Below are positions 13,167-44,999 of a stretch of 64,000 bases of DNA, one piece after another (within the stretch, counting starts at the first letter, position 1; each line of letters begins with the position of its first letter). Source of the stretch: Sedimenticola thiotaurini. Its GTDB lineage: Bacteria; Pseudomonadota; Gammaproteobacteria; Chromatiales; Chromatiaceae. A program made the translations under genes and the position numbers. The stretch lies in assembly GCF_001007875.1 (NCBI RefSeq), contig NZ_CP011412.1, positions 434,001 to 498,000 on the forward strand, read 5' to 3'. Below the pieces are notes generated by a model. The model had not been told where the DNA came from and did no database searches. It saw only the letters and a list, made by a program, of their open reading frames with translations.

Positions 13167-14324
13167 ATGCTGAAAGTTGGAATCGTTGCCAATGAGCCCT
13201 CAGGCGACCTGCTGGGTGCCGGAGTAATCCGGGAGATCAGGCAGCGCTATCCGGATGCCCAGTTTGTGGGGGTGGGCGGGCCGCTCATGATCGCGCAGGG
13301 CTGTCAAAGCCTGTTCTCCATGGAGCGGCTGTCGGTGATGGGGCTGATAGAGGTGTTGAAACATCTCCCCGAGCTGCTGTCCCTGCGTAAACAGTTGATT
13401 AACCATTTTCGCCAGGATCCGCCGGATGTGTTTATCGGTATTGATGCACCGGATTTTAACCTGGGTCTGGAAACCGCACTGAAAAAAGCCGGGATTCCCA
13501 CTGTCCACTACGTCAGTCCCACGGTCTGGGCCTGGCGTCCGGGGCGGGTCAAGAAGATCCGCGCCGCAGTGGACCTGATGCTGAGTATTTTTCCATTTGA
13601 AACCGATTTTCTTGAACAGCATCAGGTGCCGGTTCAATACGTGGGCCATCCCCTGGCGGACGAGATTCCGCTGGAGAACGATCGTTCCGCGGCCCGGGAG
13701 CAGTTGGGGGTGAGCGATAAACCCCACGTGGTCGCCATGCTTCCGGGCAGTCGAATGGGGGAGGTCCAGGCGCTGGCGGCCACTTTTATTCAGGCCGCTT
13801 CTCAGCTGACAGAGCGTTATCCCGACATCCATTTCCTGGTGCCGTTGATTAATCAGCGTACCCGGGAGGCGTTCGAGGTGATCCTCCATCGCGAGGCGCC
13901 GGACCTGCCGGTTACCCTGATTGACGGGCAGGCCAGGGACGTGATGACCGCCGCCGATGTGGTGCTGACCGCCTCCGGTACCGCCACTTTGGAGGCTCTG
14001 CTGCTGGGGCGGGCCATGGTGGTGGCCTATCGGCTCAATGGGCTGACCTACTGGATTGTTAACCGCTTCAACCTGGTCAGGATACCCTACGTGGCGATGG
14101 CCAACCTGTTGGCCGGGGAGGCGTTGGCGCCGGAGTTTATCCAGCATGCGGCCACACCCGGCGCGTTGGCGGATGCCCTGAGTGAGTTGATCGAATCACC
14201 CGCACGGATCAAACAGATTCAGCAGCGTTATCAGCAGCTGCACCGGCAACTGCAACAGGACTCCAGTCGCAAGGCGGCAGAGGCGGTATTGTCCCTGATT
14301 AACCGGGACCGGGAGCATTTATGA
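13167..14324 (+). CDS. lpxB: Lipid A disaccharide synthase
   Basis: GT19 glycosyltransferase that joins UDP-diacylglucosamine and lipid X on the inner face of the inner membrane. It has the N-terminal [14 protein letters not shown], the [15 protein letters not shown] block and the C-terminal [20 protein letters not shown] nucleotide-sugar binding region. The length of 385 residues is normal. It starts about 100 bases after lpxA and overlaps rnhB by four bases (ATGA). Confidence 0.97.
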
Positions 14325-14899
14325 CGACCTTGATGCGTATCGCCGGCGTGGACGAGGTGGGTCGGGGTCCGCTGGCCGGCCCGGTGGTGGCGGCTGCCGT
14401 TATACTGGATCCGGATCACCCCATCGAGGGGCTGGCGGATTCCAAAAAACTGAGCGAGAAACGGCGCGAGGAATTGGCGCTGGTGATCCGGAAGCGGGCA
14501 CTCTGCTGGGCCCTGGGGCGGGCGGAAGTGGCGGAAATCGACCGGCTCAATATACTCCATGCCAGCCTGCTGGCCATGCGGCGGGCCGTTGAGGCCCTTG
14601 TTGTACCTCCCGATCACGCCCTGATCGACGGCAATCGCTGTCCCGAACTGCCCTGCAGTGCAGAAGCGATTGTGGGTGGCGATGCCAGTGAAGCGTCCAT
14701 CAGCGCTGCCTCGATCCTGGCCAAGGTGGCCCGGGATCAGGAGATGGTGCAGCTGGACCGGCAGTATCCCGGTTATGGTCTGGCCAGGCATAAGGGTTAT
14801 CCGACCAAGTTCCATGTGGCGGCGCTGCTGGAGCTTGGGGTCAGTCCGATCCATCGACGCTCGTTTGGCCCGGTCAGGAAGCTGTTGCAGGGTGACTAG
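14321..14899 (+). CDS. rnhB: Ribonuclease HII
   Basis: Cuts the RNA strand of RNA-DNA hybrids and single ribonucleotides in DNA. The active-site [14 protein letters not shown] carries Asp11 and Glu12. [10 protein letters not shown], an IDGNRCP Asp, and the final AGRPV-like [13 protein letters not shown] region complete the family. The length is 192 residues. Start ATG overlaps the lpxB stop. It is followed by about 200 non-coding bases before dnaE. Confidence 0.96.
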
Positions 14900-15105
14900 G
14901 GGCGCAGAGCCAGCGGTGTGAGGGGAAGGCCGGCATACCAGGGCCGTTATTACTGGTGGGACCGACCTGCCCGGGACAAACATGATTCCGATCTGAAAAA
15001 ACCATCACCCAGTGGGTTACAATACAACGCTATGATCATTAGCCAGCACAGCCAGTTTTCACGGCCGAAGGCCGCCCGTCCGGGTGTGTCACTGGGAATT
15101 GCCGC

Positions 15106-18672
<3,567 letters not shown>

Positions 18673-35912: not shown

Positions 35913-36830
35913 ATGAAGCAGCAAATTGTCAAGTTGGCGGATCCCCGTGAATTAACCCATGTGAAAGTGGAGTTTGATCCGGAATATCATGCCGTATGGG
36001 CCAAGCTCAGTTTTCCGGATCGACCCTGTATCAGTACCGATCTTATCCGGGATCTGCAGCAGGTTCAGAACCAGGTTTCCAGTATGGCCAGGAAGGGTAA
36101 CGACGCCAATGATCCGAACCGACTGCGCTATCAGATACTCAGTTCTGATTTGCCGGGAGTGTTCTGTCTCGGCGGGGATCTGGAACTGTTTATCCAGCTG
36201 ATCCGACAGGGTGACCGGGAACGGCTGGCGACCTATGCCAAGGATTGTATCGACATCCTCTACGCTTCGATCAGCGGCTATGGATTACCCTTTACCACCA
36301 TTGCCCTGGTGCAGGGTGAGACGCTCGGTGGCGGTTTCGAGGCGGCGTTGGCGGCCAATGTGTTGATCGCTGAAAAGAGCGCCAAATTCGGATTTCCGGA
36401 AACCGTGTTCGGTATGTTCCCGGGCATGGGGGCGTTCAGTTTTCTGGCCCGCCGTATTGCTCCCGCTATCGCCAAGCGCATCATTACCAGTGGTAAGGTC
36501 TACACAGCAGATGAGCTTTTTGAGCTGGGCGTGGTGGACAAGGTGGTCAAAGATGGCCAGGGAGTGGAGGCGGTACATGAATTTATCCGTCACCAACGGG
36601 TGCGCAGCAGCGGCTTTGAGGGCCTGGAACGGGTGGTGGAGCAGTTTAACCCCCTCTCTTACCAAGAGTTGATGGATGTGGTTAACATCTGGGTGGAGAC
36701 GGCTATGCAGTTGTCGGATAAAAATCTTCGCCTGATGGAGTACCTGGTTAATGCACAGAACAAACGCTGGAGTTCCATGCCCCGGGCAAACAGCACGTTG
36801 GAACAAATTAGGGAAAGTCGCGTAGGATAA
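35913..36830 (+). CDS. rpfF: DSF synthase RpfF (crotonase-family signal synthase)
   Basis: Makes cis-2-unsaturated fatty-acid signals by dehydrating 3-hydroxyacyl-ACP and releasing the free acid. It is 305 residues from ATG 35913 (AGGAG at 35900-35904). It matches Xanthomonas RpfF throughout: FCLGGDLELFIQLIRQGDR, LVQGETLGGGFEAALAANV and GFPETVFGMFPGMGAFSF. The two catalytic glutamates fall at 143 and 163, the same 20-residue spacing as Glu141/Glu161 of RpfF. The C-terminal WVETAMQLSDKNLRLMEYLV is also typical. It is not a generic enoyl-CoA hydratase. It converges on rpfC, with a small CAGGCC/GGCCTG hairpin (36979-36999) between them. Confidence 0.94.
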   Translation: MKQQIVKLADPRELTHVKVEFDPEYHAVWAKLSFPDRPCISTDLIRDLQQVQNQVSSMARKGNDANDPNRLRYQILSSDLPGVFCLGGDLELFIQLIRQGDRERLATYAKDCIDILYASISGYGLPFTTIALVQGETLGGGFEAALAANVLIAEKSAKFGFPETVFGMFPGMGAFSFLARRIAPAIAKRIITSGKVYTADELFELGVVDKVVKDGQGVEAVHEFIRHQRVRSSGFEGLERVVEQFNPLSYQELMDVVNIWVETAMQLSDKNLRLMEYLVNAQNKRWSSMPRANSTLEQIRESRVG

Positions 36831-37020
36831 CAGCGCGAAGATGGCGCAGTGAATTAGCTGTCGACACTATCCGTTGTTGTGTTGGTTTTGTATTGGGAAA
36901 ATTTGATTCAGTTGGAAGGTTAGACTGCAGGGAGCGTATGAACCGCAGACTAAACGGAGATAGTTGTCCTCACAATAACAGGCCACGATATCAGGCCTGG
37001 CACGCTTAACAGAATACCTG

Positions 37021-39633
37021 CTAGGGACCTGACTGGCTCGACCGTTTGGTGTCGAGTCCAGCGGGTTCCAGGCGCGGACCCAGGGAGGTGGGAGGATTTT
37101 CCAGCAGCCTGGTGAATTCGCTGACCCCTTGCTGGAAGGCGGTTCGCAGATGGGCCACTTGCTCTCGCCCCAGTTCGGACAGTTGGTCCTGTTGTATCAA
37201 CTCCGCACGTCGGGCCTGTGCCTGTAAACGAATAAGGCCGAGATTGGCAGCCGAACCTTTCAGCGCGTGGGCCTCGCTGCTGAAACGGGCCGGGTCGTTG
37301 GCAACTACCGCTTCAGACATGTTGTTGATCACCTGATTCCCGTCCTGTTGCAACTTTTCCAGCAACCGTTTCAGAAACCCCGGATTGGGGGCAAGCTGGT
37401 ACAGCTCCTCGATGGTCTTCAGATCCAGAACGGATTCTTCATCCGGGACTGCGGCCGGTTCATCAACCACTTCCAGCAGTTGTTCCCGGCCGCTGTCCGC
37501 TATCGCCACCTGGATCATCTGATGCAGCCGGTGTGCGGAGATCGGTTTGGTCAGGAACCATTTAACGCCCGCTTCTTCACACTGCCTGCGACTCTCTATG
37601 GTGGCGTTGGCCGTCAGTACGATGAAGGGTGTGGTGTTGTCCGGATGGGCAAAGCGGAACATCTTGAATGCATCCAGCCCACCCAGGTGGGGCATCTGCA
37701 TATCCACAATCACCAGGTCATAGCGTCGGGTTTCCAGTGCGTCCAGCAACTCCTGCCCATCTTTCACCTCCTGGAAATGGTGACCAGCCTGTTTCAACAT
37801 GCGTCCCAGCACCAGCCGGTTAATTGCATTGTCCTCAGCCACCAGTATTTCCAAGCTGCCATGGGACGGCGTATTGGCCGGTAGCAGGGATTTATCCGGA
37901 TTGATGCTGTTGCCATCATATTCCGAGACCTGGGAAGCGTGCAGGGCGTTGAACAGGTGGACCTTGTTTAAGGGTTCATGCAGGATCTGCAGCCGCTCTC
38001 TGATCGCTGTCGGCAGTAACTCCAGTGACTGATTTGGCTGATTGAGCAACAGCAGGGAGGTTTGCTGGTGATCCTGGCTGTTTAATATCCGCTCGATATG
38101 ATCCACTACGTTCTGATCAATCGACACCTGTTCAAGCAGCAGCAGATGGTAGGGGCGGGATCTGATTGCGGCGTCTTTCAGTTTTTCAGCGGCGTCAGCA
38201 ATATCCGGGCTGTGCTCTATCTGCACGCCCCAGCCCTGCAGGCAATGGGTAACGGCCGTTTCGCTGCTCTCTTCCCGTGGATAGACGCGCAATACCCGGC
38301 AGTGGCGAACCAGTGCCAGTTCCTCATCACCGACAATCTTCTCCTGCGCCTGAAGTTCCAGTTCGAACCAGAACAGGCTGCCGTTGCCGGGATCACTCTT
38401 CAGGCCGATCACACCACCCATCAGCTCAACCAGTTGTTTGGCTATAGTGGTTCCCAGTCTGGTGCCGCCAAAGCGCCGGGTGGTGCTGCCATCCGCCTGG
38501 GTGAACTTCTCAAAAATCTTGTCCTGCAACTCCTGGGGGATGCCGATACCGGTGTCGATTACTTCGAAGCGGAGGGTCCTTTTTGTCTGCTCTTCACCTA
38601 TCTGCAGACACCGCAACTCCACCCGTCCCGTATCGGTAAACTTGATCGCGTTACCGATCAGATTGATCAGTACCTGGCGGAGATGCAGGGGATCCCCGAT
38701 CATCCGGAACGGGATAGCGGGATCAATATGGGCGAATAGCTTGACGCGCCGGGTATTGACTTGTGGGGCAAGCATTTTTACCGTGCTGTTGATCAGGGCG
38801 TAGAGGTCAAACGGAGTTCGTTCGATCTCCAGTTTGCCGGCCTCTATCTTGGAGATGTCCAGGATGTCCTCGATCAGTCGCAACAGGGTGTGCCCGGATG
38901 TATAGATGGTATCCACGTACTCCTGTTCCAGGGGTTTGAGATCGCAGCTTCTGAGCAGTTCACCGGTACCGATAATACCGTTCAACGGTGTGCGGATCTC
39001 ATGGCTCATACGGGCCAGAAATTCACTCTTGGCGTGACTGGCCGCCTCCGCCCGACGACGCTCCTGGTGAATACGTTTCGTCAGTTTTGCCGCGTAGCCG
39101 GGTAGAACAATCAGCGACGCAAGCAGACCGATGCCGAGAGGCAGGTTCTCTCTCCAGTAGGGTGTGAAGGCGATGACCAGACTGAAACCGAGCACGGACA
39201 GCACCCCGGAGAGGTAGAGATACTTTTCACCGTAGCGAAAGCCGTTACCAAATGTGACCCAGAGATATACCGCATACCAGGGCGCACCCTGTTCACCGGT
39301 CAGGGCAAGGCCGATACTGAAGGTGGATACATCCATGATAATGCCGATTGTTCTGCGGATCGGCGACCTGTCCGGCCAGACCAGGATAGAGACAAACAGG
39401 GATGAAGAGAGGATGATGAAAAAAGTGATGAATGCGAGTGTGAAATACCAATCTGTCTCTGACGCCGGTGACGAGGGACCGGCAGCGATGACATAGACCA
39501 GCAGAACGACCTGGATAATCACTCGAACAGCGGCCTGTTCGTGCTCGCTGTCCGGTCGACTGTTTAATCGATGGCTGAGATTACGGAGCCCTTTCTCTAG
39601 CGAGCCATAGATGGATGTGGGATTGCTATTCAT
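37021..39633 (-). CDS. rpfC: DSF sensor hybrid histidine kinase RpfC
   Basis: Inner-membrane sensor of DSF-type fatty acids. It has 870 residues. The N-terminus carries RPDSEHEQAAVRVII (Arg26 to Glu30), like the DSEH stretch just before the first helix in Xanthomonas RpfC, where DSF binding was mapped. Five membrane helices follow (to about 185). HisKA is AKSEFLARMSHEIRTPLNG (His211), HATPase has N-box Asn328, then a degenerate receiver (about 440-565), a true receiver (Asp644, Lys696) and an HPt domain (His789, AHALKGSAANLG). The G2 box reads GGTRLGTTIA, with Arg392 where Gly is usual. It would phosphorylate RpfG and restrain RpfF through its receiver. Divergent from the ACP gene. Confidence 0.94.
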   Translation of the reverse strand: MNSNPTSIYGSLEKGLRNLSHRLNSRPDSEHEQAAVRVIIQVVLLVYVIAAGPSSPASETDWYFTLAFITFFIILSSSLFVSILVWPDRSPIRRTIGIIMDVSTFSIGLALTGEQGAPWYAVYLWVTFGNGFRYGEKYLYLSGVLSVLGFSLVIAFTPYWRENLPLGIGLLASLIVLPGYAAKLTKRIHQERRRAEAASHAKSEFLARMSHEIRTPLNGIIGTGELLRSCDLKPLEQEYVDTIYTSGHTLLRLIEDILDISKIEAGKLEIERTPFDLYALINSTVKMLAPQVNTRRVKLFAHIDPAIPFRMIGDPLHLRQVLINLIGNAIKFTDTGRVELRCLQIGEEQTKRTLRFEVIDTGIGIPQELQDKIFEKFTQADGSTTRRFGGTRLGTTIAKQLVELMGGVIGLKSDPGNGSLFWFELELQAQEKIVGDEELALVRHCRVLRVYPREESSETAVTHCLQGWGVQIEHSPDIADAAEKLKDAAIRSRPYHLLLLEQVSIDQNVVDHIERILNSQDHQQTSLLLLNQPNQSLELLPTAIRERLQILHEPLNKVHLFNALHASQVSEYDGNSINPDKSLLPANTPSHGSLEILVAEDNAINRLVLGRMLKQAGHHFQEVKDGQELLDALETRRYDLVIVDMQMPHLGGLDAFKMFRFAHPDNTTPFIVLTANATIESRRQCEEAGVKWFLTKPISAHRLHQMIQVAIADSGREQLLEVVDEPAAVPDEESVLDLKTIEELYQLAPNPGFLKRLLEKLQQDGNQVINNMSEAVVANDPARFSSEAHALKGSAANLGLIRLQAQARRAELIQQDQLSELGREQVAHLRTAFQQGVSEFTRLLENPPTSLGPRLEPAGLDTKRSSQSGP

Positions 39634-39714
39634 AATTGGGTGATGATACAGTGGCTCGGCGTGTCACCGACAGCAAATCCAGCCTATTTCAGTCCTTATT
39701 CGGAAGCATATCTC

Positions 39715-39966
39715 ATGGCCTTAGACATTGAAACTATAGTTAAAACGGCGATCGCAAATCAGAAGATGATTGATGTGGATTCCATAGCGCTGGAGACATC
39801 ACTACAGGATCTTGGGGTGACCTCCCTGGATGCCATCACCATCGTCTACGAAGTTGAGGAAGTGTGTGATATCGAAGTCCCCAATGATGAGTTGGAGAGT
39901 CTCCGGACGGTGCAGGACATTGTTGACGGCGTTCGGTCGTTAGTGAGCGAGAAAGGCGATGCATGA
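39715..39966 (+). CDS. Dedicated acyl carrier protein
   Basis: An 83-residue acidic ACP starting at ATG 39715 (a longer frame upstream adds 25 unrelated residues). The phosphopantetheine attachment Ser37 lies in GVTSLDAITIVYEVEE, with Thr where the housekeeping ACP has Asp (DSL), so it is a specialised ACP rather than AcpP. The stop overlaps the ketosynthase start. The gene lies 81 bases from the divergent rpfC start. The ACP-ketosynthase pair is organised like rhizobial nodF-nodE. A role in carrying the acyl chain used by RpfF is inference. Confidence 0.9.
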   Translation: MALDIETIVKTAIANQKMIDVDSIALETSLQDLGVTSLDAITIVYEVEEVCDIEVPNDELESLRTVQDIVDGVRSLVSEKGDA

Positions 39967-41168
39967 ATGACCGGGTGGTAGTGACCGGTCTCGGATCGGT
40001 ATCGGCGCTGGGTCTCAATACCGACCAGTTCTGGTCTGCGCTAAAGGAGGGACGGAGTGGGATCTCCTCCCTGCAGGGGTTTGACGATTCGGGATTGAAA
40101 GTTGCTCTGGGCGCCCAGGCCAACGGGTTCGACCCCAGCAGCTGTTTTTTCGCCCGGGATCTCCCGATCCTGGACCGGTACAGCCAGTTTGCACTGATGG
40201 CCTGTCAGGAGGCGCTGGCACAAGCGGGCTTGGATGAAACTGCACTGGATGGCGCTGCGGCGGTGATCGGTACCGGCTGTGGTGGCAAGGAGACCGACGA
40301 AGCCACCTATGATCAGCTCTATCGACAGGGAAAGTCCCGCGCCCATCCATTCACCATTCCGAAAGGCATGCCCAGTGCGGCCGCCAGCCAGGTGAGCATG
40401 CAACTGGCGATCACCGGGCCGGTCTTTACCGTCTCCAGCGCCTGTTCATCAGCCAATCATGCGATTGCACAGGCTGCTTTGCTGATTCGGGCGGGTGTTG
40501 TGCAGGTTGCCGTAGCGGGCGGTACGGACGCACCCTTCACCTATGGCCTGTTGAAGGCCTGGGAAGCGTTGCGGGTGCTTTCCAAGGATAACTGCCGACC
40601 CTTTTCGGCCGATCGCAGTGGTCTGGTTCTGGGGGAAGGGGCCGGGATGGTGGTGCTGGAGTCGGAGCAGCACGCCAGGAGTCGTGGTGCCACAATGCTT
40701 GCCCGGCTTGCCGGTTCCGGTATGTCATCGGACGCGGGCCATATTACCGATCCCTCTGCAGCCGGAGCGGCACGGGCTATCCAGGCCGCGCTCAAGGACG
40801 CCGCCATGGATCCTCAGGCTGTAGATTATGTGAATGCACACGGTACCGGCACCCTGGCCAATGACCGCACGGAAACTGAAGCGATACACCGGGTGTTTGG
40901 TTCGCACGCCGCCAGGTTGATGGTCTCGTCTACCAAGTCGATGCATGGCCATGCCCTGGGGGCATCCGGTGGCCTGGAGTTTGTTGCCACTGTTCTGGCA
41001 CTGCGGGATGGGGTGATACCGCCCACTATCAATTTCACCCGGCCAGGGGAGGGGTGTGACCTGGACTATGTGCCCAATACTGCCCGGGAGAAGAGAATTC
41101 AGGCGGCGATCTCAAACTCGTTCGCCTTTGGCGGATTGAACGCGGTCCAGGTGCTGCAGGCGGTGTAA
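39963..41168 (+). CDS. Beta-ketoacyl-ACP synthase II-type (FabF/NodE-like)
   Basis: Condensing enzyme that elongates an acyl chain with malonyl-ACP. It has 401 residues and the thiolase fold. The catalytic triad is complete: Cys161 in VSSACSSANHAI, His293 in NAHGTGTLAND, and His330 in STKSMHGHALGASG with Lys325. This makes it an active elongating FabF/NodE-type enzyme, not a chain-length factor. It overlaps the ACP gene by four bases (ATGA) and ends convergent with the methyltransferase gene. It is not the housekeeping fabF, because no acpP/fabD/fabG cluster surrounds it. Confidence 0.92.
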   Translation: MNDRVVVTGLGSVSALGLNTDQFWSALKEGRSGISSLQGFDDSGLKVALGAQANGFDPSSCFFARDLPILDRYSQFALMACQEALAQAGLDETALDGAAAVIGTGCGGKETDEATYDQLYRQGKSRAHPFTIPKGMPSAAASQVSMQLAITGPVFTVSSACSSANHAIAQAALLIRAGVVQVAVAGGTDAPFTYGLLKAWEALRVLSKDNCRPFSADRSGLVLGEGAGMVVLESEQHARSRGATMLARLAGSGMSSDAGHITDPSAAGAARAIQAALKDAAMDPQAVDYVNAHGTGTLANDRTETEAIHRVFGSHAARLMVSSTKSMHGHALGASGGLEFVATVLALRDGVIPPTINFTRPGEGCDLDYVPNTAREKRIQAAISNSFAFGGLNAVQVLQAV

Positions 41169-41276
41169 TGGTCACTGTCTGCTGAACAGGCATGTTGTTA
41201 CCAGCCATAAAGCGGGGTGGTTACAGACGGCGCACACTTGCCATGCACGATGGCGGTCTCTGCTCTATCTTCGCGG

Positions 41277-42335
41277 TTACTGCTTGCGATATCGGTAGTG
41301 GCCGTTGCCGAAGAACTGGCCCGACTGGGGAGCGAACAGGACCACTTTGCAGACACTGAAGTAGTTGTTCCAGTAGCGGATATCCTCAACCGACAGCAAC
41401 GTGTCGTGCAGCTGTTCGATCTGTGCCCAGAATCGGCGATGCCACTCGTCAATCGTACGCCAGTAGTTCATACCGTTGATGTAGATGCCCAGTTCCGGGG
41501 TCAGATGGCGCTGCTGGTTCAGCATCTCCCCGTGCGGCCAGACGCGTCCGCCCGGAAAGTAGGCCCCGACCGGCGTTTCCCGGGCATTGAAATATTGGGG
41601 GAATACGGGTTGCGACACGATCAGATGGAGGAAAACCCGACCGGCTGGTTTTAATAGTGATGCCATGAGTTGGAAAATGGCATCCAGATTGTTCACCTGT
41701 TCAAACACCGCGATCGAGATGACCAGATCGTAGCGTTCAATACCCAGCTGTTCCGGCGGAATGTCGCTGATGTCGCTTTCAATCAGTGTCAGATTGGCCT
41801 TGTTGAACAGATGGTCGGGGTCTTGCTGTTTGCTGCGGATATAGTCCGCCTGGGTTTTGCTGGCGGTGATAGTAACGACTTCCACATCCGGGAAGTGCTT
41901 GAACAGGTAGACCTCAAAAGAGCCGAAGCCACAACCGATATTAAGTATTTTTTCATCACCGCGGATTTCGGCCCGCTCACAAATGAGGCGGAATTTCTCC
42001 TCCTGGGCCTGCTCCAGGGTGTAGTCGCACCGCAGAATCTGTTCCGGAGTTTCACCATAATAGGCCATGGAGTAGGCCATGTAATCCTTGTCGAGAAAAG
42101 ACTGGAAAAAACCGAGGGGCTGGTCGTAATGGACCGACATGAGGTCCTGGGTCTCTTCCCATGTGGGGCCCTGGTCAGTGGTGATTCCAAATGCAGCGAG
42201 GGAGTGGTTCTTGGCGGCTTCGCGCTGGTATTCCCGATTGAAATAGCGCGTCAGGCGCTCCTCATACAGTTGTAGCTCTTCCGAGCCGTATGGGTGTATG
42301 CCAGCTTTACGAAGCTTTTGATGGAGTGGGTTCAA
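41277..42335 (-). CDS. Cyclopropane-fatty-acid synthase-like SAM methyltransferase
   Basis: A 352-residue protein of the CFA synthase family. It has the SAM-binding loop ILNIGCGFGSF (130-140), LRCDYTLEQAQEEKF upstream and FEQV where CFA synthases have FEH. The bicarbonate-binding Cys of true CFA synthases (YSCGYW) is Met90 here (YSMAYY). It probably methylates a fatty acyl chain or a related carbon but may not form cyclopropanes. The start is TTG with GAGGG just upstream. It lies 18 bases behind the RpfC-like gene in the rpfG operon. Confidence 0.82.
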   Translation of the reverse strand: MNPLHQKLRKAGIHPYGSEELQLYEERLTRYFNREYQREAAKNHSLAAFGITTDQGPTWEETQDLMSVHYDQPLGFFQSFLDKDYMAYSMAYYGETPEQILRCDYTLEQAQEEKFRLICERAEIRGDEKILNIGCGFGSFEVYLFKHFPDVEVVTITASKTQADYIRSKQQDPDHLFNKANLTLIESDISDIPPEQLGIERYDLVISIAVFEQVNNLDAIFQLMASLLKPAGRVFLHLIVSQPVFPQYFNARETPVGAYFPGGRVWPHGEMLNQQRHLTPELGIYINGMNYWRTIDEWHRRFWAQIEQLHDTLLSVEDIRYWNNYFSVCKVVLFAPQSGQFFGNGHYRYRKQ

Positions 42336-42353
42336 TTTTCCCTCTGCGGATGT

Positions 42354-43931
42354 TTATTCCTGTTCGTAGGCTGAACTATTACCCATAGCGAGGTGTTCAT
42401 GCAAGGCCTGAATAGTAGCAGTGCGACAATTGTCAATGTCACAGACCAATTCATCCACTTCGGCCTTCAGGTCAAGGCTTTCGATTCGGCTCAGCCGCAC
42501 CGCCATCCGATATAGGGTCATGGCGCCCAGGTTACCGGCGGTGTCCTTCAGTTTATGACCACACTCCTGAATGGCGGGAATATCCTGTCCGGCGGCGGCA
42601 AACTGGAGGCTGTGGAGCAGTTCCCTGCTCTCCTTTTCGAACTGCTTAATCAGCTCCAGCAGGAACCCCTTTCTCTTTCCGAGTCGTGTCAGTCCGTTCA
42701 ACTGATGGGTGTCGAGTATCAGGCTGTCGCCATGATACTCGGTCGAACCCTGGGCGGTAGGATAGTCGAAGACCCCGTTGTTGTGGTTTTCATCCCCCAG
42801 ATCCATGGCCCGGGCGACCGCTTCCATCAGGCGCGGGGGTGAGATCGGTTTGGCCAGCAGGTGTTTGATCTCCGCCGCTTCGCAGGACTGGATCGTCTGG
42901 GAACTGGGTGAATCCAGCAAAAGAATGAAAGGTATCCAGGGCTGGCTGAGATGGGCAAACCGGTACAGTTTTACCGCCTCTATGCCGGAAATATCGGGTA
43001 GTTCTGCATCCAGAATGGCCAGGTCAAAGTGGTGATTATCCAGCGCATCCAGTAATTGGGGTGCATCGTCCACCACAAATGCCTGGTGCCCGGAGTTGGT
43101 CAGAATCCGGTGGATTTTCCTCGATTCATTGGCACTGGTGCAGGCGATCAGGATATCCAGCGGCTGGAGCAGTTTCTCCGATTCATAGTGATCCAGCAAC
43201 TGCACCACGTCATGATGGTGCGCAGAGGTTTCACAGGCGTTGTGGAGCGTTTTGAACAGCAGGGTCTTGTCCAGCGGGGTGGAAAGCATGCCGGAGTATC
43301 CCGCCATGTACAGCTGTTCGATGCGGGATGGAAGGGTGCTGTTGCCGTAATGGATCAGGTAGAGTGCCTGCAATGAGGGTTCTGCCCGAAGAGCGATGGC
43401 GAACTGGCTCTCTTCCATGTCCAGGCTGCTCTGATCGACAAGTACGGCCTGGAAGGGGGTGCCTGCATCGCTGGCCTCAATAAGGGTGGCAAATGCACGG
43501 ATACTGCTTTCTACCTGTGTGAACCTGGCCCCCCACCCCTGCACATACTTGGCTACCTCTTGCTGAGTTCGTTTGTTTCCGGACAGGATCAGCAGATGGA
43601 TGCTGCTGAGTGAGGCGGTTTTACTATCCCGCGGTTGTGGGGCAACAGCATTCGGTTCGGAGGCTGATTCGCTCTCTTCAGTGCAGTGAGTGCTGTCGTC
43701 AACGCTCTTTGGTGCTGATGGCCGGGTCAGTCCGGACTGTTTGGCTTTCTGCGTCATTGTGCGGTAAATGACGATCATGCTGATCAGTAAGGCAGGCAGC
43801 AACAGCTCAACCCGGAGGTTTCCCACTAGCATGAGCAGGTCAATACACAACACTCCCACTACAGTGCCGTAACCCAGAATGTCCTGTCTCTTCATGGTAG
43901 TTTGCCGGTGAGTGTTGTTCTGACTATCCAT
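42354..43931 (-). CDS. Kinase-less RpfC-like protein: two receivers plus HPt, membrane-anchored
   Basis: A 525-residue protein built like the C-terminal half of RpfC but without HisKA and ATPase domains. Two membrane helices lie at about 20-36 and 41-56, then a linker and a degenerate receiver (about 110-230, no KP motif). A second receiver (about 257-375) has Asp308 and Lys361 but ACTS in place of the Mg-binding AEDN. The HPt domain has His459 intact in GHKLKDTAGNLGA. The FAH-x8-IPF region of the receiver closely matches RpfC, pointing to duplication. ATG 43931 or 43895 may be the start. It lies 9 bases after rpfG and likely interacts with RpfF or RpfG. Confidence 0.85.
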   Translation of the reverse strand: MDSQNNTHRQTTMKRQDILGYGTVVGVLCIDLLMLVGNLRVELLLPALLISMIVIYRTMTQKAKQSGLTRPSAPKSVDDSTHCTEESESASEPNAVAPQPRDSKTASLSSIHLLILSGNKRTQQEVAKYVQGWGARFTQVESSIRAFATLIEASDAGTPFQAVLVDQSSLDMEESQFAIALRAEPSLQALYLIHYGNSTLPSRIEQLYMAGYSGMLSTPLDKTLLFKTLHNACETSAHHHDVVQLLDHYESEKLLQPLDILIACTSANESRKIHRILTNSGHQAFVVDDAPQLLDALDNHHFDLAILDAELPDISGIEAVKLYRFAHLSQPWIPFILLLDSPSSQTIQSCEAAEIKHLLAKPISPPRLMEAVARAMDLGDENHNNGVFDYPTAQGSTEYHGDSLILDTHQLNGLTRLGKRKGFLLELIKQFEKESRELLHSLQFAAAGQDIPAIQECGHKLKDTAGNLGAMTLYRMAVRLSRIESLDLKAEVDELVCDIDNCRTATIQALHEHLAMGNSSAYEQE

Positions 43932-43940
43932 AGTACCGAT

Positions 43941-44999
43941 TTAATTGCTTAAGCTATCGTGACCATGCGCGGAACGGCTTTGCATGGTGAGAATTTTGTC
44001 GAGGTTTTCCAAAAAGGCGTCCACGCAATCCGGGTCGAAATGTTTACCTCTCTGCGCTTCCAGATAACCGAGTGTCTGATCCAGTGACCAAGCGCTTTTA
44101 TAAGGTCGTTCCGATCGGAGCGCATCATATACATCTGCAACCGCCACTATCCGTGCCTCGATGGGGATCTCCTGACCTGTTAGTCCCTGCGGATAACCTT
44201 TGCCATCGTAACGTTCATGATGGCCGTAAGCGATTATCGCCCCGGCTTGCACGTAACAGGAGGTACTGTCGCGCAGGATCTCATAGCCAATGCGGGTGTG
44301 CGTCTGCATGATGCTCCACTCCCGGGCATTCAGTTTGCCGGGCTTGAGCAGGATATGATCGGGAATGCCGATCTTGCCAATGTCATGCATCGGTGCAGCC
44401 AGTCGAATCACCTCACACAGCTCCTTATCCAGATTGAGAGATTCGGCGATCAGACAGGCGAAGTCGGCCATCCGGATCACATGATCGCCGGTCTCCTCAT
44501 CACGATATTCCCCGGCTCTCGCCAGCCGTAGCAGGGTCTCTTTTTCACGCAGTTGCAACTCTTCGGTTTTGCGTGAGATCTCCTGTTCCAGCCAACGGGC
44601 CCGATCTTTGATAATGACTTGCTGTTTTCTCAATTGCAGCAGGTTCCGGCAGCGTGCCCGGCACTCATAATGGTCGATCGGTTTGGAGAGAAAATCGGTA
44701 GCGCCGGCTTCCAGCGCCTGGTAACGGATCGCTTTATCATCGATGCAGGTGACGATGACCAGCGGTATGTCGGTGCAGGAAGGTATTTTGCGAAACCAGT
44801 GAGTAAACTCCACGCCATCCATGTTGGGCATCTTGTAATCTGTGATGACCAGGTCGTGATTGTTGTGTTTGGCCCATTCAAGTGCCTTGACCGGGTCAGA
44901 AAAACACTCAACGTGGATGCTCTCGTCGATAGAGTGGATCAACTCTTCAAGGATCATCAGACTGATTGTCTGGTCATCTAGAATCAGCACGGTTGGCAT
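43941..44999 (-). CDS. rpfG: Response regulator RpfG, HD-GYP c-di-GMP phosphodiesterase
   Basis: Hydrolyses cyclic di-GMP when phosphorylated by the RpfC phosphorelay. It is 352 residues from the ATG at 44999 (AGAGGA upstream). The receiver has Asp8/Asp9, phosphoacceptor Asp54 and Lys106. A short coiled coil links to the HD-GYP domain with HDIGK (205-209) and the HHERYDGKGYP motif (260-270), so the domain is likely active. The first gene of an operon with the RpfC-like and methyltransferase genes. A candidate promoter lies at 45089-45117. Confidence 0.95.
   Translation of the reverse strand: MPTVLILDDQTISLMILEELIHSIDESIHVECFSDPVKALEWAKHNNHDLVITDYKMPNMDGVEFTHWFRKIPSCTDIPLVIVTCIDDKAIRYQALEAGATDFLSKPIDHYECRARCRNLLQLRKQQVIIKDRARWLEQEISRKTEELQLREKETLLRLARAGEYRDEETGDHVIRMADFACLIAESLNLDKELCEVIRLAAPMHDIGKIGIPDHILLKPGKLNAREWSIMQTHTRIGYEILRDSTSCYVQAGAIIAYGHHERYDGKGYPQGLTGQEIPIEARIVAVADVYDALRSERPYKSAWSLDQTLGYLEAQRGKHFDPDCVDAFLENLDKILTMQSRSAHGHDSLSN

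Follow-up and report, generated by a model that had tools for sequence, protein, structure and literature searches.

A DSF-type rpf locus of Sedimenticola thiotaurini that probably carries an acyl-supply module of its own

Why should a quorum-sensing locus of the diffusible signal factor (DSF) family contain genes for building and modifying an acyl chain? This question is raised by a 64,000-nucleotide stretch of the Sedimenticola thiotaurini chromosome (NZ_CP011412.1, positions 434,001 to 498,000; hereafter the window, with all coordinates counted from its first letter), in which genes for an acyl carrier protein (ACP), a ketosynthase (KS) and a methyltransferase (MT) lie between rpfC and rpfG. 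Our analysis suggests that this is a DSF-type RpfF/RpfC/RpfG locus with an acyl-supply module of its own, which probably provides RpfF with a private 3-hydroxyacyl-ACP whose chain is usually methylated. The observations that carry this reading are the gene content of the locus, its catalytic residues, its long-term linkage, the separate KS clade with a changed pocket, and the joint absence of the genes. The features of the locus are as follows:

35913..36830, + strand: rpfF, a crotonase-family DSF synthase homologue, whose characterized relatives are dehydratase/thioesterase enzymes that use 3-hydroxyacyl-ACP (match to the solved RpfF 3m6m, catalytic Glu pair, PRK08788)
37021..39633, - strand: rpfC-type hybrid histidine kinase with hydrophobic N-terminal input, HisKA, HATPase_c, receiver and Hpt domains (domain search)
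39535..39558, - strand: kinase codons 26-33, RPDSEHEQ, a match to the DSF-sensor motif (R15, D17, S18, E19 and Q22 of Xanthomonas RpfC)
39634..39714, no strand: intergenic region of 81 bases separating the divergent rpfC and ACP genes
39715..39966, + strand: dedicated ACP, LGVTSLDAI with the Ser for phosphopantetheine (PP-binding domain)
39963..41168, + strand: FabF-type KS of the rpfF-linked clade, C161, H293, K325, H330 (residues, profiles, tree)
41277..42335, - strand: MT of the CFA/CMAS family, dependent on S-adenosylmethionine (SAM) (CMAS domain, residues, AlphaFold2 model)
42354..43931, - strand: receiver-Hpt phosphorelay protein with a hydrophobic N-terminus (domain search)
43941..44999 from the ATG (open reading frame to 45038), - strand: rpfG, receiver plus HD-GYP cyclic-di-GMP phosphodiesterase (domain search, HD and GYP signatures)

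The initial annotation had named rpfF, rpfC and rpfG and had placed the ACP, the KS and an MT resembling cyclopropane fatty acid (CFA) synthase between the last two. Domain profiles confirm the three signaling genes at the positions listed, and the calls for the other three genes are correct in position; the receiver-Hpt gene (42354-43931) is an extra member that had been overlooked. rpfF starts at an ATG at 35913 that is preceded by AGGAG, and the ACP open reading frame spans 39640-39966 on the forward strand with a probable ATG at 39715. The KS start and the ACP stop overlap by 4 bases, and these two genes appear to form an operon that faces the rpfG/receiver-Hpt/MT operon. Gaps of only 18 bases between the MT and receiver-Hpt genes and 9 bases between the latter and rpfG suggest that the MT is probably cotranscribed with rpfG, as the last gene of the rpfG operon. 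rpfC and rpfG are not in one operon, as the ACP and KS genes lie between them on the opposite strand. Pattern searches found no promoter-like or CRP/Clp-like site in the 81-base rpfC/ACP intergenic region. CRP/Clp-like sites were rejected as evidence of co-regulation, with 15 in the window against 25 expected and none upstream of rpfF or in the rpfC-ACP gap, and so were sigma-70 patterns (5 found against 6.3 expected).

The conservation of this arrangement was examined at two levels. A scan of named genomes with RpfF found 515 relatives, of which the best 80 were used as loci, some of them near-duplicates; these 80 contain the KS in 33 cases, the ACP in 34 and the MT in 24. Counts by identity class were made on the 58 loci whose sequence extends 5 kb or more downstream of rpfF; the remaining 22 were left out. 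Among these, the KS is present in 21 of 23 loci at an RpfF identity of at least 55%, in 8 of 14 at 45-55% and in none of 21 below 45%, or in 29 of the 37 at 45% or more. In the family sample (194 genomes), a close RpfF, defined by an identity of 48% or more, occurs in 35 genomes and the module KS in 33; 30 genomes have both. RpfF and KS are encoded on one contig, at most 5.3 kb apart from start to start, in 28 of these 30 genomes and on different contigs in the other two. The initial annotation had staked its idea on such conserved co-occurrence in related genomes, and the idea survived (Fisher's exact p 1e-26 over the 194 genomes, with shared ancestry ignored). Three KS were excluded as lying outside the clade, those of G021 (59% identity) and of G070 and G171 (51-52%); G021 is left out of the module KS count because the tree places its KS outside.

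The other members follow the KS closely. The MT is found in 28 family genomes, all 28 of which have the module KS, in 25 cases on the same contig. A further 44 family genomes with a more distant RpfF lack the module KS altogether. Within the genus, the MT was found in seven of eight other genomes, each with the KS, and the eighth, G004, is 65% complete. Two genomes of other genera also keep the set, G018 in an altered order and G027 across two contigs. The class sample (369 genomes) gave five matches at E 1e-115, one of them the window's own genome. Of the other four, G273 and G550 have the full rpfF-linked set and G442 and G557 do not. The bearers include Sedimenticola, the endosymbionts of Lamellibrachia and Escarpia tubeworms, and metagenome-assembled genomes (MAGs) labeled Thiohalobacter, Ectothiorhodospiraceae and Chromatiales.

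Regional synteny as the only cause of the linkage was considered and rejected. At the eight module-bearing loci with an RpfF identity of 45-55% (L083, L085, L086, L089, L091, L094, L096 and L099), ACP, KS and MT are retained, and the genes that flank the locus in Sedimenticola (Rad50-like, YbaK, HrpB and ThrH) were not found in the available sequence, which covers 1.6-10 kb on the upstream and 6-10 kb on the downstream side. The internal order shifts as well, with the MT before the kinase in L085 and before the ACP in L100; in L078, rpfG lies on the opposite side. The kinase tree, in which no root was inferred, has MT bearers on each side of its deepest supported split, which suggests that the module is old and was then lost in some lineages. 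Judged from these comparisons, the gene arrangement is not due to chance. In one Sedimenticola MAG, a subtilase and AAA ATPase pair that matches the IetAS anti-phage defense lies between KS and MT (L058, 6092-9404). Among the loci L105-L135, many of them alphaproteobacterial (for example, Sphingomonas; RpfF identity 40-47%), 24 of 31 have no RpfC/RpfG-like match in the sequence available around them, which probably points to other pathways or other receptors.

The dedicated ACP and KS are extra copies, since the genome has a separate acpP-fabF pair elsewhere plus one further KS and ACP. The ACP, in its 83-residue form, scores 43.5 bits against the PP-binding profile and is one of three such loci in the genome. 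The KS had been described as a fully catalytic FabF-type enzyme, and this is borne out by the complete set C161, H293, K325 and H330 (Cys-His-His with the Lys of FabF/KASII). Its best NCBIfam model is FabF, below the cut-off (447.6 against 493.75 bits). In a tree of 50 rows, which comprises the module KS, 11 KS paralogues from the same genomes (six of them in the FabF clade) and others, 34 module KS and the KS of L167 form one clade with support 100/99, apart from the paralogues, and the window's KS does not cluster with housekeeping FabF. Chance capture of a housekeeping KS and ACP was therefore rejected, given this separate clade and the location of acpP-fabF elsewhere.

At 50 positions, the module KS have a fixed residue (at least 94%) that occurs in none of the six FabF. 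Among these positions are the sites equivalent to I108, F133, G198 and F202 of E. coli FabF, which we take to be acyl-pocket positions in that enzyme's numbering and which are Cys, Thr, Leu and Trp here; the Trp at the F202-equivalent site occurs outside the clade too. From these residues, the predicted acyl pocket is changed relative to that of FabF. The most divergent pocket motifs are those of L064 and L069, both from loci without the MT; L074, which also lacks the MT, keeps the motif.

The nearest KS outside the clade, whose branching order is not resolved in the tree, include those of L170, L171 and L172. The KS of L171 (7478-11484) lies in the order LpxD-like, ACP, KS, LpxB-like, and that of L172 (1582-5607) in the order LpxD-like, KS, LpxB-like; in L172, the KS frame showed no ACP domain. 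The KS of L170 has an ACP, a desaturase and an acyltransferase beside it. The operons of L171 and L172 probably represent a private acyl supply for an alternative lipid A-like molecule. LpxD is a user of 3-hydroxyacyl-ACP, and as LpxD and RpfF both consume this substrate, the association is the best indirect evidence that the ACP-KS pair supplies 3-hydroxyacyl chains.

The signaling proteins have the features expected of a DSF circuit. RpfF matches the solved structure 3m6m at E 5.6e-60, keeps the catalytic glutamates E146 and E166 (308-residue numbering; invariant in 8 of 8) and passes the wider NCBIfam family PRK08788 with 345 bits against a cut-off of 177. The closest named locus among the matches listed is that of S. 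selenatireducens DSM 17993 (RpfF identity 87%), in which the locus is complete. The RpfC-type kinase has the complete expected set of HisKA, HATPase, receiver and Hpt domains, and its RPDSEHEQ adjoins the first hydrophobic segment and matches R15, D17, S18, E19 and Q22 of Xanthomonas RpfC. According to PMC5391125, alanine replacement of these sensor residues impairs DSF sensing, while the change S18T is tolerated. The receiver and HD-GYP domains of RpfG were both found, with the HD and GYP signatures legible in the sequence, and RpfG is 82-89% identical in the seven other same-genus genomes from which the locus was retrieved. The receiver-Hpt protein forms a single open frame with an RpfC-like membrane input domain in L046 (14458-16272) and L047 (13387-15270) and resembles an RpfC from which the kinase core has been lost; a separate RpfH-like gene in L047 was rejected because the input domain is continuous in frame with the receiver-Hpt part. 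Kept beside rpfG, this protein could add a relay or a phosphate sink.

The MT METHYLTRANSFERASE contains a CMAS domain (116.1 bits against a Pfam cut-off of 27) and falls far below the NCBIfam CFA synthase equivalog cut-off (105.9 against 400 bits). Its AlphaFold2 model has a mean predicted local distance difference test (pLDDT) score of 93.5. In a Foldseek search with this model, the first 45 of the 50 matches listed are plant N-methyltransferases, aligned over their full length; mycolate enzymes and CFA synthases rank next among the matches listed, with a template modeling (TM) score of 0.64-0.66 by query length; normalized to their own length, the mycobacterial enzymes, which are shorter, score 0.80. 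By alignment, the MT retains four of the five residues that we take to form the bicarbonate site of E. coli CFA synthase (C139, E239, H266, I268 and Y317), namely E212, H237, I239 and Y291, and H237 and Y291 are invariant in all 25 MT homologues. The catalytic pair of N-methyltransferases, presumably Glu204 and His208 of coclaurine N-methyltransferase, is replaced in the alignment by A209 and Q213, although position 213 by itself is not decisive because it is His in many relatives. Thus, the MT looks, on its modeled fold and aligned residues, like an enzyme of CFA chemistry on an N-methyltransferase-like body.

We propose that the dedicated ACP would carry the growing chain and the dedicated KS would perform the chain-extending condensation, with the general FabG and related enzymes carrying out the rest of the cycle, up to a 3-hydroxyacyl chain bound to the private ACP. 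The ACP would then hand the chain over to RpfF, which would dehydrate it to the cis-2-enoyl form and release the free acid; RpfC would sense the resulting signal and RpfG would adjust cyclic-di-GMP. In most lineages, including Sedimenticola, the MT would add a SAM-derived methyl group to the chain, as a branch or a cyclopropane, most likely at a mid-chain cis double bond, since a conjugated 2-enoyl bond is a poor acceptor. The hand-over from ACP to RpfF, the methylation of the signal and the product are what we infer from the locus. According to PMC4542539, Xanthomonas RpfF takes 3-hydroxyacyl-ACP, and cerulenin, which blocks FabF/FabB, lowers DSF output. The initial annotation had joined a dedicated 3-hydroxyacyl-ACP supply to a new methylated DSF. 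The supply is supported by the linkage, the separate KS clade and the related KS beside LpxD-type genes; the new methylated signal is an inference, and the MT is not universal.

Several observations weigh against this proposal. Three of the 33 genomes with the module KS have no RpfF found (G032, G067 and G214), their KS being near a contig end or behind a kinase that is cut by one. Two genomes with a close RpfF have no module KS found (G113 and G170), their rpfF contigs, of 7.3 and 6.1 kb, stopping at the kinase; RpfF without the KS is also seen in the incomplete G004 and in G062 and G105, whose complete locus does not contain the KS. The last two are the L077/L079 genomes, in which no module KS or MT was found genome-wide. 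Their genus keeps rpfF, rpfC, the receiver-Hpt gene and rpfG, with no ACP, KS or MT between the kinase and receiver-Hpt genes, so that the module is dispensable for keeping the rpf locus. The KS of L167 is within the clade yet away from rpfF, with a distant RpfF on another contig. The MT is absent from L064, L069 and L074, where the KS is kept, and from L070, as judged from contig L176 of the same genome. By lineage, two have the KS and no MT, and a third lacks the whole module. In L064, its slot is occupied by a radical-SAM gene (13897-15408) with weak similarity to HpnJ, HpnR, P-methyltransferases and B12-dependent lipid-modifying or methylating enzymes. In the MT itself, C139 of E. coli CFA synthase corresponds to Met90, E212 is lost in two of the 25 homologues (L086 and L127), and the best structural matches, at TM 0.75-0.79 by query length, are the plant N-methyltransferases.

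If the signal is methylated, the receptor may have changed with it. The presence of the MT and the state of the motif R-x-D-S-E-x-x-Q in the kinase could both be read in 35 of 44 rows; for L070, L068 and L071, the MT state was assigned by hand, based on further contigs or contig ends belonging to each genome. The rows dropped include L104, L109 and L072, whose kinase is cut at its N-terminus. The motif is canonical in six of six loci without the MT and in six of 29 with it, those six all being Sedimenticola, including the window. By the strict pattern, it is altered in all 23 MT-bearing rows outside Sedimenticola, although in L075 the sole change at a contact residue is S18T. L104, which has neither KS nor MT, was dropped because the pattern failed to read its motif; by eye this is ESAGEREQ and non-canonical, so the count without the MT is really six of seven. 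The rows amount to three independent contrasts, one of them on well-supported branches, and the link therefore cannot reach significance. It resembles a co-change of signal and receptor, with Sedimenticola and L104 as exceptions, and serves as a lead only. The canonical motif in the window's own RpfC, a further point against the proposal, means that the signal need not be unusual at its head group.

The main rival explanation is that the ACP, KS and MT serve to make a different compound, for example a modified lipid of the membrane or cell surface, whose synthesis is switched by the DSF circuit, so that they would be its output and not a signal factory. The occurrence of related KS in LpxD/LpxB-type operons or, with an ACP, by a desaturase and an acyltransferase, the position of the MT immediately downstream of the rpfG and receiver-Hpt genes, and the existence of rpf loci without the module can all be read in this way, and the classical substrates of CFA-type enzymes are membrane lipids. 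We nevertheless consider it rather unlikely, because the conserved cluster shows no acyltransferase or other consumer of the chain except RpfF, which is itself a consumer of 3-hydroxyacyl-ACP, and because members of the module KS clade occur almost exclusively in genomes with a close RpfF (30 of 33 in the family sample).

It is also conceivable that the ACP and KS supply ordinary DSF from a pool independent of membrane lipid synthesis while the MT acts elsewhere. The changed KS pocket, the presence of the module KS in every genome that has the MT, and the altered motif in all MT-bearing rows outside Sedimenticola (in L075, among the contact residues, only by the tolerated S18T) make this improbable, even though the MT is optional, Sedimenticola RpfC has the canonical contact motif, and the product pattern of Burkholderia RpfF tracks substrate supply (PMC4504480). 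That the MT is an N-methyltransferase like coclaurine N-methyltransferase, with an amine substrate and no relation to the acyl chain, would fit its overall fold; with that enzyme type's assumed catalytic pair replaced, the CFA-type residues kept and two of them invariant in every homologue, we regard this as very improbable indeed. The reading that we prefer is thus a private acyl supply for RpfF, with the MT acting on the chain where it is present.

Among known systems, the locus resembles rpfF/rpfC-rpfH-rpfG of Xanthomonas in its three signaling proteins, in the convergence of rpfF with rpfC and in the DSF-contact residues of RpfC. It differs in having an ACP, a KS and, usually in relatives, an MT between rpfC and rpfG, in the separate transcription units of these two genes with a receiver-Hpt protein beside rpfG, and in an RpfF whose score of 238.5 bits does not reach the 550 bits of the NCBIfam RpfF equivalog cut-off. 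The lipid A-type sets of L171 and L172 are alike in placing a private KS, with an ACP in L171, beside an enzyme that uses 3-hydroxyacyl-ACP, and the rhizobial AcpXL type is a dedicated ACP/ketosynthase set for lipid A chains; at the Sedimenticola locus, however, the consumer is RpfF and the expected product is a free acid signal, not lipid A. With CFA synthase and the mycolic acid methyltransferases (CMAS), the MT shares the CMAS profile and four of the five residues assigned to the bicarbonate site, and it differs in its equivalog score, in its shape and at Met90. The dspI cluster of Pseudomonas aeruginosa also has a DSF synthase homologue among fatty-acid metabolism genes, but the accessible part of PMC4504480 gives no known sensor and names no ACP-KS-CFA set.

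Earlier papers report RpfC and RpfG in Sedimenticola and tubeworm symbionts (PMC10300362) and in Hiromi 1, a vent isolate (PMC4136832), with no mention of the ACP, KS or MT in the accessible parts of these papers. No description of rpfF joined with an ACP, ketosynthase or CFA-type gene was found in the open PubMed Central literature, mostly at the level of abstracts and with subscription papers outside it, and the same literature yielded nothing relevant on rpfF combined with Sedimenticola, Endoriftia, a dedicated ACP or cyclopropane.

The current view is that DSF signals draw their substrate from general fatty-acid synthesis and that species differ because of substrate supply (PMC4504480 and PMC4542539). 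As a tentative suggestion, which we hold as possible though doubtful, chemosynthetic sulfur oxidizers and vestimentiferan tubeworm symbionts may use a new signal of the DSF family, a cis-2-enoic acid built by a private ACP and KS, with a SAM-derived methyl branch or cyclopropane and with co-changed receptor motifs. If true, the identity of the quorum signal would be set by a built-in and swappable acyl-tailoring module (with a CFA-type MT, with a radical-SAM enzyme or without an MT). A supply module that is conserved and evolvable and forms part of the signaling locus would explain how signal specificity can be encoded and swapped, and would extend DSF signaling into chemosynthetic and animal-symbiotic bacteria, with testable predictions.

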